Assembly: GCA_028292745.1 (NCBI GenBank)
Contig: JAQGLT010000129.1
Span: 1-64,000, forward strand
Reading direction: 5' to 3'
Length of the DNA: 64,000 nt
DNA from: Polaromonas sp.
Lineage (GTDB): Bacteria > Pseudomonadota > Gammaproteobacteria > Burkholderiales > Burkholderiaceae_C
Shown here: positions 45,943 to 51,016 of the stretch, in pieces
How positions within the stretch are numbered: the first letter of the stretch is position 1
Layout of the letters: every line of letters starts with the position of its first letter
The notes under the pieces: generated by a model
What the model was told of the DNA's origin: nothing
What the model saw: only the letters and a program-made list of their open reading frames with translations
Database searches by the model: none
Program-made: the position numbers and the translations under genes

Positions 45943-46005
45943 GGCAGTCCTTCAAGACTTTGGTTCCTTGTCCTTTGGCTTGGGCAAAGCAAAGGAAGCA
46001 AGGGC

Positions 46006-46131
46006 TGCCCAGGCGAACGGCTGAACGCTTACTGGTCAAATGACCGGAAACGGTGCGCTTCCCCGTGGTGTCCCACGTCCGCCATCAATGGCTGAAAAAC
46101 CATGAAGCCTATCGCCAGTTGCGCACCGCGC
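46006..46131 (-). ncRNA. probable ZTP (pfl-motif) riboswitch in the glyA 5' UTR
   Basis: Minus strand reads GCGCGGTGCGCAACTGGCGATAGG...GGACACCACGGGGAAGCGCACC...GCCGTTCGCCTGGGCAG, matching conserved ACUGGCG, CCACGGGGAAGCG and GCCGUUCGCCUGGGCA segments of the pfl motif, directly upstream of glyA. Confidence 0.82.
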
Positions 46132-46163
46132 TAGTGTAGCGTAGGCGGGTTTCCGGATATTCG

Positions 46164-47066
46164 TCAGGACTGGCCCAGCAGCGCCACACTTTCGGTCGAA
46201 TTTTCGCCCGCTTCCTGAATCGAACGCTGCGCAGGTAATGGCAGCGGAGTCCTTTGCGATGGAACTGGGGTTGCAACATTGCGCGAAGTAGGGGGCCGCT
46301 TGCCATCAACGACGGCCAGCAGGCGGGCATGCTCAGCCATGACCTTGCCTGCATACCCGCCATCGCTTTCCAGATTGGCTGCGCCTACATAGTGTTTCAA
46401 GCCACCTTCGATCGAGCCGGCGCGATGGATGCACTCCTGAAGCACTTTCACGCCAACCCGCAAGTTGGTCACAGGGTCGAAAGCCGCCAACTGGCCGCCG
46501 ACGGTTGCATATTTGTCATGATGCACCCGTGTCATCACCTGCATCAGGCCCTGCGCGCCAACCGGACTTTGAGCAAATGGATTGAAGCCTGATTCGACGG
46601 CCATGATGGCCAGGATGAGGGTAGGGTCCAGTTTGACGTTGCGACCAATATCAAAAGCTTCCGCCACCACTGCGCCGATAGGCTCTAGCGCCACGGAATA
46701 TTTTTTGCTGATCCACGCGGCCACTGCAGCCTGTTGCGTGGACAAAAGCCTAGGTTTCGGAGCTACAGGCTGTTCCACCCTGACAACTTCAGTCGGGGCA
46801 ACTATGGCAGCGGGAACTTCAGCAACGCGGCGTTTCTGCAACCAGGTCATGAGCTTCATCTCCCCGGCGTCACGCAAGTCAGGTCGCGCTGTCAAGGCAA
46901 TCGCAGAGAACACGACGGCAAGCCCCACAAGCGCAAAACTGCTATGGGTGACCTGAAAAAAACCTTGGGCAATATCTTCTGCCACCGTTGCAAGGTGGCT
47001 TTGTGCATTTCTTAAAAATGCGCGGGTGTTGGAATTGACGCTTTTGTCGATGACCAGTACTGTCAT
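46164..47066 (-). CDS. lytic transglycosylase (SLT domain)
   Basis: LDPTLILAIMAVESGFNPFAQSPVGAQGLMQVM; NLRVGVKVLQECI; start at MTVLVIDKSV. Confidence 0.88.
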   Translation of the reverse strand: MTVLVIDKSVNSNTRAFLRNAQSHLATVAEDIAQGFFQVTHSSFALVGLAVVFSAIALTARPDLRDAGEMKLMTWLQKRRVAEVPAAIVAPTEVVRVEQPVAPKPRLLSTQQAAVAAWISKKYSVALEPIGAVVAEAFDIGRNVKLDPTLILAIMAVESGFNPFAQSPVGAQGLMQVMTRVHHDKYATVGGQLAAFDPVTNLRVGVKVLQECIHRAGSIEGGLKHYVGAANLESDGGYAGKVMAEHARLLAVVDGKRPPTSRNVATPVPSQRTPLPLPAQRSIQEAGENSTESVALLGQS

Positions 47067-47276: not shown

Positions 47277-47490
47277 TATTAAAAACTATACAAGGAAGGT
47301 GATTTTTCGATGAAAAATGACTAACTTCACGCTTCCCAGGTTTTAATTTCAGGCTTTTCTTTAGGTAACGCTTGAAGCATCCAGTTAAATGAAAACCTTT
47401 GTAAGCCTTGGCATGCCGATTTTTAACGCTTCGTGGCTATGCAATGATCCGAGCAGACTGGCGCCAAAGTAAAAATAAAAGGAAACATCA

Positions 47491-47541
47491 ATGGCAGGCC
47501 CTACTGCAATTGAAAAATTAGGCTTGCTCGTATGGCTTTAG
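47491..47541 (+). CDS. candidate 16-codon small ORF (MAGPTAIEKLGLLVWL)
   Basis: ATG preceded by AAAAGGAAA with good Shine-Dalgarno spacing; stop TAG immediately before a stem-loop array. Confidence 0.4.
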   Translation: MAGPTAIEKLGLLVWL

Positions 47542-47558
47542 GGGTCTAACCTGCAGTT

Positions 47559-47717
47559 GTCCAACTCATTGGACATCAACCGGGTAACCAAGCCCGGCAA
47601 AACTGGAAGCAATCTCTTGCTTCCATCGCACCTCGAGACGATTAATCTCTCGTTTGCGAAGCCCGATGGCATGGTATTAATGCCGCCATCCGCCCCGGTC
47701 GGTTCAACTGACCGGGG
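47559..47717 (+). ncRNA. candidate structured RNA: six consecutive stem-loops, the last terminator-like
   Basis: GTCCAA-CTCA-TTGGAC; CCGGG-N8-CCCGG; TGGAAGCAA-TCTC-TTGCTTCCA; CGAGA-N9-TCTCG; GATGGC-N14-GCCATC; CCCCGGTCGG-TTCAA-CTGACCGGGG followed by TTCTTT (with one G.U). Confidence 0.6.
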
Positions 47718-48148
47718 TTCTTTATGGCTGCTGTGCAGGCGACTCCCTAAAGAGATTGAAAGTGCTCTATATATAGATGAGCTTTCAGGTGTCCTGTCAT
47801 TTCCCATGGGTTGTCTTTGGGAGATGTTGACAAACTTTTTCCCCCTCCAGCCGATTGGCTTAATTGCACCAAATAAGACGCGTTGCGCCTTCATGCAACT
47901 GCAAAACCTCGTCCTGCCCAACTTAATTTGGCATTGCGTTAAAAACAGCGAAAATAGAGGCATTGCTTTAATTTTTAAAGCCATGGGTCGTCGGGCCTTG
48001 CAAGCCATGACCTCCATTTCCTTAGCTGCCAGATCCCCTGTTTGTCGTCTGCCATGCCAAAAATGCTGGCAGGCACGCCAGTTAGGTTTTGCATCCCGGC
48101 GCGGGCACTACTGTCCGAAGCTGCTTTTTTCCGAAACGATTTTTATAT

Positions 48149-51016
48149 ATGCTGCGCTTTCCCTTGTCCAAATCTTCCAAAGCCGAAACCACTTCAGCCG
48201 CCGCCGTGAAATCCAGCCCGGCCAAAAGCACTGAAGCCCATCCGCTTGACAGTCTGACGGGCGGTGCCTTTTCTGCGCCTACCTCGGGCGAACGTGCCTC
48301 GCGCATTCGCCAGTGGCTGGCAACCGACCCTGCGCCTGAGCAGATGGCCGAGGTTTACAAGGATCTTGCCAATCGCGACAAGGGCGCGGCCAAGCCTTTG
48401 AAAGAAAAGCTGGATGAAGTCAAGCGCAGCAAGGGTCAGGAAGCCGCTGCCGCCGAATGGGCCGGCAAGGCCCAAGTCCTTCTGGACTTGCCCAAACTCA
48501 ATCTGGCCGATGCCCTGGCGTGGCAGCGCGATGCTGCCAAAGCAGGTGCCCCCTTGTCCAAGGAACCATTGGCTGGGTTGAAGGTGCAGTTGACTGAGCG
48601 AGTCAAGACAATCGAAGACTTGCAGCATCGCACCCAGGTCCAGCGCGAAGCGGCTGTGCTGATTGCACAGCGTATCGAAGTGCTGTCCATCAAACCGTGG
48701 CGCGATGCCGAAGCCGTGCTCGACACCTTGCGCGCCGATGTCGCGCACTGGCAGGCGCAGGCAGACGAGTTGACGCAAGATGCCAACTGGGCGAGCGTGG
48801 ATGGCAAATTCCCGCCGCTCCTGGATGCTTCGCGCGGCCAGTTGCTGGCAGTCTGGGATGCGTTTCAAAGTGCGCTGGCCATGGCGTTGAAGGCGGCCGA
48901 GGACAGCGCTGCACCACTGCCTGCCGTGCCGGTGTGGGCCGATGAGTTGCGTGCTGCACGCGGCCTGCCTGCCTCGAAGGCCGAGCCTCACGGGGCAGCC
49001 GATGGCACCCAGCCGGCGCGTGCGCCCAAAATCAAGATGGATCCGGCGGCCTTGAATGAGTTGCGTGCCAAATCTTCGGCTACTGTGCAGGAGGCACTCG
49101 CCAGGCTTGAGCATGAAGTCACCGCGGGCCACGGTAAATCAACCCCCAAGGTGGCCGCTGACCTGCGCCAGGCGCTGAAAGAGAACATCCGCAACATCGA
49201 CAGCAAACTGGAGGCCGCAGCCCATGCCGCATTGACGGCCGCTGGCGAACTCGAAGGCTGGCAGCGCTGGCGTGCCGACCAGATCCGTGAAGAGCTGGTC
49301 GTCAAGGCCGAAGCCCTGGCGGCCAAGCCCTTGGGGGGGCGAAAGCAGCAGGACGCTTTGCGCAACATGCGCGAGCAGTGGAAAACCAGTGACCAGGGCG
49401 GCACGCCGAATCATGCGCTGTGGAAGCGGTTTGACGATGCCTGCAACGAAGCCCACAAGGTGGTTGAGGCCTGGCTGGAGAAGGTCAAGGAGCAGGCTGA
49501 GGCCAACAAGGCCCAGCGTCAGCTGTTGATCGATGAGGTGCTGGCCTGGGCGGAGGCGAACCAAGGCAATACCGACTGGAAATACCATATCCGCAGCCTG
49601 AACGGCTTTGTCGAAAAATGGCGCGAAGCCGGGCATCTGGGGGAAAAAGCCTTTGCTGAAATCCAGCCGGTCTGGAAAGCTGCCATGGACCAGGCCGATG
49701 CGGCGCTTACCTCTGCCCGCAACGACAGTCTGGCACGCCGCAGAGCCATGATCGAGGAGGCGCAGGCGCTGGGCGCCGAGCCGCAGTTGCGCATTGATGC
49801 GGTCAAGTCGCTGCAGCAGCGCTGGCAGCATGAAGCGCAAAGCGTGCCGATCGAGCGCAAGCAAGAGCAAAAACTGTGGGACGCTTTCCGCAAGCCGATT
49901 GACGATGCTTTCCAGCGCAAGACGCTGGAGCGCGAAAAGGCCGCAGCAGCTTTGGGTGAGCATGACCGTTATGTGCTGGAGGCGGCCAAAGCGGTGGAGG
50001 CGGCAACTGCCAGCGGCGATGCGCAAAAAATTCATGCGGCTGCGAAAGCCCTGGAAGCGGCGGTTCGCGGACAAGTCCAGGTGGCCGCCGCCGCTGCTGA
50101 AGCCAAAACGGCGGCCGATGCCGCAGGGGCGGCGGCCAATGTCGAGGAAATTCCAGGATCAGAAGCAAATCAGGCCGCAGTGCAGGATATGCCTGCACAA
50201 GATGCTACTGAAAGCATAGCAAATGAGGAGGCGGGCGACACTGCTGCAGCACCACCTGCAGAGGCTGCTCCAGCGCTTGACCCTGCACCGTCCGAGCCGG
50301 CGCCGGCCCCGAAACCAGCCGCCAAGCCCATCATCGCCATGCGGGGCGACGACCGTCCAGGCATGCGCAAAGCCGAACCTGTCAGTGCCGGGCGTGGAGG
50401 AAAATTTGGCGATCGCAAGGACGCACGCCCGGGCAGCAAGCCGGGCGGCCCACGTTCCAGCAGCGACAACAAGTTCGAGCCCTACCGTGCCGACCGCGAC
50501 AGCCGCCTGGACCGTGGCGAGCGCTTCAGCGAGCGTCCGGCGTTCGAAGACCGTGGCCCGCGCCTGGGCGATGCCGCCTTCCGCGCCCAGCGCGAAGCGT
50601 TTGAAGCCGCCAACCAGGCGCTGAAAAAGCTGGCCATGCAAGCGCATGGCGAAGTGCTGACCAACCTGCTCACCGCCTGGGAAAAACGCGATCCGTCGCA
50701 ACTGCCCGCTGTGCAGGAATTGGGCAAGCAGGTCACGCCCGCGGTGCGCAACAGCTGGGTTCAGGCCCTGGGCGCACCGGCCGGCAAGGATGCGGCCGAG
50801 GCGCTGTTGCGTTTGGAAATCGCCGCCGAACTGCCCACGCCGGCCGAGCACATCAGCGCGCGTCGCATGCTGCAGCTACAACTGTTGACCCGGCGCAATG
50901 CACCGGCTCCGGCCGAAACCTGGGGCGAGGATGCCGCCAAGGTGCTGGCAGCTGAATTCGATGCCGGCAATGCCCGGCGTGTGCAAAATGCGCTGAAGGC
51001 GCTGCTCAAGCGCTGA
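48149..51016 (+). CDS. DUF349 domain-containing protein
   Basis: MLRFPLSKSSKAETT start; repeated DUF349-like segments (LRNMREQWKTSDQGGTPNHALWKRFDDACNEAHKVVEAW; VKSLQQRWQHEAQSVPIERKQEQKLWDAFRKPIDDAFQRK). Confidence 0.88.
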   Translation: MLRFPLSKSSKAETTSAAAVKSSPAKSTEAHPLDSLTGGAFSAPTSGERASRIRQWLATDPAPEQMAEVYKDLANRDKGAAKPLKEKLDEVKRSKGQEAAAAEWAGKAQVLLDLPKLNLADALAWQRDAAKAGAPLSKEPLAGLKVQLTERVKTIEDLQHRTQVQREAAVLIAQRIEVLSIKPWRDAEAVLDTLRADVAHWQAQADELTQDANWASVDGKFPPLLDASRGQLLAVWDAFQSALAMALKAAEDSAAPLPAVPVWADELRAARGLPASKAEPHGAADGTQPARAPKIKMDPAALNELRAKSSATVQEALARLEHEVTAGHGKSTPKVAADLRQALKENIRNIDSKLEAAAHAALTAAGELEGWQRWRADQIREELVVKAEALAAKPLGGRKQQDALRNMREQWKTSDQGGTPNHALWKRFDDACNEAHKVVEAWLEKVKEQAEANKAQRQLLIDEVLAWAEANQGNTDWKYHIRSLNGFVEKWREAGHLGEKAFAEIQPVWKAAMDQADAALTSARNDSLARRRAMIEEAQALGAEPQLRIDAVKSLQQRWQHEAQSVPIERKQEQKLWDAFRKPIDDAFQRKTLEREKAAAALGEHDRYVLEAAKAVEAATASGDAQKIHAAAKALEAAVRGQVQVAAAAAEAKTAADAAGAAANVEEIPGSEANQAAVQDMPAQDATESIANEEAGDTAAAPPAEAAPALDPAPSEPAPAPKPAAKPIIAMRGDDRPGMRKAEPVSAGRGGKFGDRKDARPGSKPGGPRSSSDNKFEPYRADRDSRLDRGERFSERPAFEDRGPRLGDAAFRAQREAFEAANQALKKLAMQAHGEVLTNLLTAWEKRDPSQLPAVQELGKQVTPAVRNSWVQALGAPAGKDAAEALLRLEIAAELPTPAEHISARRMLQLQLLTRRNAPAPAETWGEDAAKVLAAEFDAGNARRVQNALKALLKR
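50165..50220 (+). repeat. family A palindromic element (diverged) inside the DUF349 gene
   Basis: GCAAATCAGGCCGCAGTGCAGGATATGCCTGCACAAGATGCTACTGAAAGCATAGC. Confidence 0.5.

Follow-up and report, generated by a model that had tools for sequence, protein, structure and literature searches.

In the 64,000-nt stretch of Polaromonas DNA analysed here (the window), a divergent lytic transglycosylase gene and a downstream DUF349 gene flank an intergenic region in which a short ORF, a dyad and a sigma70-like promoter precede six closely packed stem-loops, the last of which has the form of an intrinsic terminator (Table 1). A sequence-only reading of this region had described these stem-loops, and on checking the sequence all six were found at the coordinates it gave, including the third, with its 9-bp stem and TCTC loop, and the last (47693-47717), a CCCCGGTC/GACCGGGG stem followed by TTCTTT, whose terminator-like appearance was borne out. 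The fourth (CGAGA/TCTCG, 47634-47652) is likewise present, but an additional outer stem, formed by TCGCA at 47626-47630 with TGCGA at 47655-47659, had been missed. The six stem-loops are genuine, and folding of this stability is far from what chance would give; in the folding comparison with shuffled controls that had been proposed as a check, 47470-47730 had an energy of -103.1 kcal/mol, whereas shuffled copies averaged -71.0 (sd 4.6), i.e. z = -6.97, and 0 of 200 shuffles reached the energy of the window. The RNA formed by these elements is probably ~166 nt long.

Table 1. Features of the locus, in coordinates of the window
Feature	Position	Strand	Basis or remark
Divergent lytic transglycosylase gene (SLT domain)	46164..47066	-	Pfam PF01464, E 3e-17; start approximate
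Upstream dyad CAAT-N16-ATTGAAAA	47489..47516	+	Putative activator site; conserved
16-aa ORF MAGPTAIEKLGLLVWL	47491..47541	+	Judged not a gene
-35 element TTGCTC	47524..47529	+	Same position in relatives; promoter scores
-10 element TAACCT	47547..47552	+	17 nt from -35
Predicted ncRNA transcript, ~166 nt	47559..47724	+	Ends inferred from promoter position and terminator
Stem-loop P1 (5' hairpin; GTCCAA/TTGGAC at 47559-47574)	47558..47575	+	Aligned sequence; sister-group pair changes
Stem-loop P2, short form (CCGGG/CCCGG)	47580..47597	+	Alignments
Stem-loop P3, near-invariant top GCAAUCNNUUGC	47604..47625	+	Covariation, loop conservation
Stem-loop P4, two stacked stems, loop motif AC...CU	47626..47659	+	Covariation, loop conservation
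Stem-loop P5 (GATGGC/GCCATC)	47665..47690	+	Covariation
Intrinsic terminator, CCCCGG/CCGGGG stem and T-rich tail	47693..47724	+	Covariation; tail in relatives
Downstream DUF349 gene	48149..51016	+	Pfam PF03993

When 301 genomes of the same GTDB family were searched at the DNA level, 18 matches were returned; one of them (L010), limited to 27 bases that lie outside the core, was left out, and the 17 kept align into one clear common architecture. With a covariance model built on the 3' part of the element (P3, P4, P5 and the terminator), matches were obtained in 119 of the 301 family genomes, covering 60 of 141 genera, with E-values down to 7e-22 and with one match per genome, one exception among the 119 aside. 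Moreover, 86 stretches came from scanning named genomes with an exact pattern, and among the 80 matches listed the model confirmed 72, which belong to Hydrogenophaga, Ramlibacter, Delftia, Comamonas, Curvibacter, Rhodoferax, Polaromonas, Acidovorax, Malikia, Hylemonella, Serpentinimonas and others; the remaining 8, which carry non-Burkholderiales names (e.g. Serratia and Pseudomonas), were left unconfirmed by the model and were treated as chance.

Beyond the family, the class-level search (229 genomes) gave a single match, which is borderline (E ~0.01), and searches of plasmids and phages gave no match to the RNA element. In order-level model searches of 300 and 399 genomes one genome outside the family matched, and the match (L053, 1501-1615, minus strand; 37.3 bits, E 8.5e-5), from another family of the order, was itself a training sequence of the second order-level model. 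It is a possible distant homologue, and its homology is uncertain; its neighbours, identified by eye, are rpiA, transaldolase and yggX-like genes, with neither the transglycosylase gene nor synteny. Inside the family, 18 of the 19 genomes that keep the transglycosylase gene and have no model match showed no RNA beside that gene. On a FastTree tree of the transglycosylase proteins the presence of the RNA is clustered (7 changes, compared with 16.9 when shuffled), a pattern that fits vertical descent with several losses.

Evidence for the fold comes from two alignments. The first comprises 100 matches over the core P3-P4-P5-terminator and, being fitted to the covariance model, leans towards the structure; 96.9% of its cells hold standard pairs, both-sided changes occur in 22 of the 28 core pairs, and double-change cells number 340, compared with 76 after shuffling and 9-68 in slid controls. 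For the second, 28 full-length RNAs were aligned with MAFFT on sequence alone and read against a hand-written structure that includes P1 and P2. It gives the same picture (97.0% paired; double changes in 24 of 43 pairs; 80 double-change cells vs 20 shuffled and 8-17 slid). Compensatory changes, the signal that had been suggested as a check of the stems, are seen in every helix above the shuffled and slid controls, and the element is almost certainly, as judged from these comparisons, a structured RNA family.

The individual helices differ in how they vary. Both-sided changes affect 4 of 5 pairs of P1 in the sister group (99.3% of cells paired), 7 of 7 pairs of P4 and 5 of 5 modelled pairs of P5 (97.5% paired), while covariation is seen in 5 of 8 pairs both in P3 (99.1% paired) and in the terminator stem (98.9% paired). 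P2 is a short hairpin in the genus of the window and an expanded domain in most others (L012, L006, L009 etc.), GCCGGUAGGAGCC...GCAGCCCCGGC, also written GCCGGUAGGAGCC...CCCCGGC. In all 100 sequences the P3 loop begins with U, and a C in the P4 loop is equally invariant; judged by column composition in the same 100 sequences, conserved unpaired runs are short. A T-rich tail follows the terminator stem in the relatives also, where it is often broken by C.

Just before P1, best scores for a sigma70-like promoter average 10.6, compared with 5.2 in shuffled sequences. The call is a consensus match, and it exceeds the 95% shuffle level in 53 of 100 loci, so that the promoter is clear in most loci, not in all. 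The spacing is 17 nt in 57 of 72 selected promoters, and the place of the -10 element is occupied in close relatives by TAATCT, TAACCT or TAGCAT. In the window the position of the promoter would put the transcript start near 47559. Farther upstream, a dyad of the form CAAT-N15/16-ATTG, then AAAA, is found in 38 of 72 loci (34 with N16) against 0.3 in shuffles, and its exact form CAAT-N16-ATTGAAAA occurs once each in G000, G100 and G071 (three of the five genomes tested), at this locus only. This dyad, 5' of the promoter, is probably the binding site of an activator. Structure, single copy, synteny and promoter are in this way shown by comparison of related sequences.

Upstream of the RNA the neighbour is nearly constant, while downstream it varies: 91 of 100 loci have the divergent transglycosylase gene, whereas the RNA is followed by the DUF349 gene (cluster c11) in 25, by a DUF748/AsmA-like gene in ~57 and by other ORF clusters in 11. 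Two of these 11 (L100 and L114) were checked with Pfam and carry a glycine-transporter-type gene on the opposite strand, i.e. convergent with the RNA, and in L100 a DUF1841 gene also lies on the opposite strand downstream; such convergent neighbours offer a natural experiment that speaks against a leader. Whatever lies downstream, the terminator is retained, in the 11-locus group as well. Because the downstream gene changes while the terminator is kept, the RNA is very probably a stand-alone unit and not a leader. On the other side of the locus, a ZMP/ZTP riboswitch (RF01750, 56.2 bits) lies at 46000-46132 on the minus strand, upstream of glyA, and a riboswitch of this class is also near the RNA in L002, L006, L011 and L016, which indicates that the order glyA-transglycosylase-RNA is old.

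Readings in which the RNA serves the adjacent gene, or encodes a peptide, have to be weighed against these data. A cis-acting leader, i.e. a riboswitch or attenuator with the terminator as its switch, would agree with the next gene being co-directional in the window, as it is in most relatives, and with an element that ends in a terminator; it is nevertheless very improbable, since the downstream gene differs among loci (DUF349 or DUF748/AsmA) and stands on the opposite strand in L100 and L114, no conserved antiterminator was seen, and in the window the DUF349 gene starts ~425 nt past the terminator. The sequence-only reading had further suggested a leader-peptide attenuator, or a dual-function or type I toxin-like RNA, on the basis of the 16-aa ORF. 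This ORF is indeed present as AAAAGGAAA-N6-ATG with its stop 17 nt before the first stem, and its good-looking ribosome-binding site and hydrophobic C-terminus speak for such a role, which we regard all the same as barely credible. When conservation of the frame was checked, the peptide was conserved in 0 of 100 loci; the aligned region has neither start nor stop in same-genus relatives, and the best peptide score in any relative was 31, compared with 82 for the peptide against itself, from a match in an unrelated frame. The only residues that recur, IE or IEK, are encoded by the ATTGAAAA half-site of the dyad: IEK corresponds to the right half-site, and the start codon is a G variant of the left one (CAATG). 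Since the dyad and the promoter explain the region, and relatives have neither its start and stop nor its peptide, the ORF is judged to be coincidental, lying on the promoter region of the RNA and outside its predicted extent. The attenuator proposal thus fails on an unconserved ORF located upstream of the predicted transcript start and on a downstream gene that varies, and the toxin-like or dual-function proposal on the lack of any conserved small hydrophobic peptide in the relatives.

As a whole, the best explanation, and a likely one, is an undescribed stand-alone structured ncRNA family, found mainly in Comamonadaceae, probably controlled by an activator and acting in trans. The sigma70-type promoter at 47524-47552 would start a ~166-nt transcript, probably helped by an activator on the upstream dyad, and the transcript would fold into a chain of five stem-loops followed by the intrinsic terminator. 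The RNA is most likely, we infer, a regulatory sRNA that works in trans and whose exposed conserved P3 and P4 loops (UCUC and AAUCUC) would pair with mRNAs or hold an RNA-binding protein. A trans-acting base-pairing regulator has about an even chance of being right. Counted against the best explanation are the conserved unpaired runs, which are short for a classic seed, the T-rich tail often interrupted by C, and the lack of the RNA in some family members that retain the transglycosylase gene. Due to the short seed and the interrupted tail, protein binding has to be taken seriously as an alternative: a stand-alone RNA that acts as a sponge, a scaffold or a ProQ/FinO-type substrate and does not pair with mRNAs, which we consider the less expected case, though one of real weight. 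Nearly the whole RNA is base-paired, and its most conserved part is the intact top of the P3 hairpin (GCAAUCNNUUGC), in which paired and loop residues hardly vary, a pattern expected for protein recognition; however, no known protein motif was recognised, and GGA, the CsrA motif, is absent from the conserved loops. A CsrA sponge of the CsrB/RsmY type was rejected separately, as no conserved GGA occurs in the P3-terminator loops of the 100 sequences, P1-P2 being inspected by eye. A more specific version, in which the P3 top and the P4 loop are read by a protein and the RNA is a scaffold or sponge with a dedicated activator, serving as a core regulator of Comamonadaceae without base pairing, is unlikely; if true, such a protein-read scaffold or sponge would represent a class of bacterial ncRNA that is new in its function.

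Comamonadaceae are abundant bacteria of fresh water, soil, plants and wastewater, and to our knowledge almost none of their regulatory RNAs is understood. The RNA described here makes a good core-regulator candidate, because it is single-copy, occurs in ~60 genera of one family, has nearly always the same neighbour, is absent from Rfam and has its own apparent control site. Moreover, it lends itself to testing, since the covariance model is ready for use, the promoter is defined and hosts can be grown in culture.

The element is a previously uncatalogued RNA family, single-copy and mainly of Comamonadaceae. The sequence-only reading had recognised no standard RNA class, and no Rfam family reaches its cut-off, gathering as well as relaxed thresholds having been tried; a search of the literature outside subscription journals found no description of such an RNA. 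Together with the covariation, the lack of an Rfam match upholds the earlier suggestion that this is a structured ncRNA of an undescribed kind, ending in an intrinsic terminator. Sub-threshold Rfam scores could be taken to mean that the RNA is a divergent copy of a known class (6S, anti-hemB or sX11) or part of a mobile repeat. This is highly improbable, for these matches rest mainly on the terminator, 6S RNA is separately present in the same genomes (in the genome of the window on another contig, at G000:C112:35305-35484), which speaks against identity with it, and one syntenic copy per genome and absence from plasmids and phages speak against a mobile element.

Among known RNAs, the best sub-threshold score is that of anti-hemB RNA of Burkholderia (RF02837), also a short betaproteobacterial RNA with a CCCCGG-type terminator, yet it amounts to 18.1 bits in the window and 30.8 in the best relative (L008) against a gathering cut-off of 49.5. 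The BRE repeat, a betaproteobacterial intergenic repeat reported in Comamonadaceae in up to 29 copies (PMC3110155), shares the intergenic location and the family, whereas the window element is single; the two are set apart here by description and copy number, not by sequence. The S17 sRNA of Bordetella pertussis, located between a glycosyltransferase gene and coq7 and conserved in a 27-nt single-stranded seed region (PMC11722255), resembles the window RNA in length, in its intergenic position in a betaproteobacterium, in the 17-nt spacing of its promoter and in ending at an intrinsic terminator, but it lies at another locus, and what is conserved in it is not a series of covarying hairpins next to a transglycosylase gene. 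6S RNA (RF00013) is likewise a single-copy structured RNA of similar size; it forms one long rod, whereas the window RNA is a chain of hairpins.
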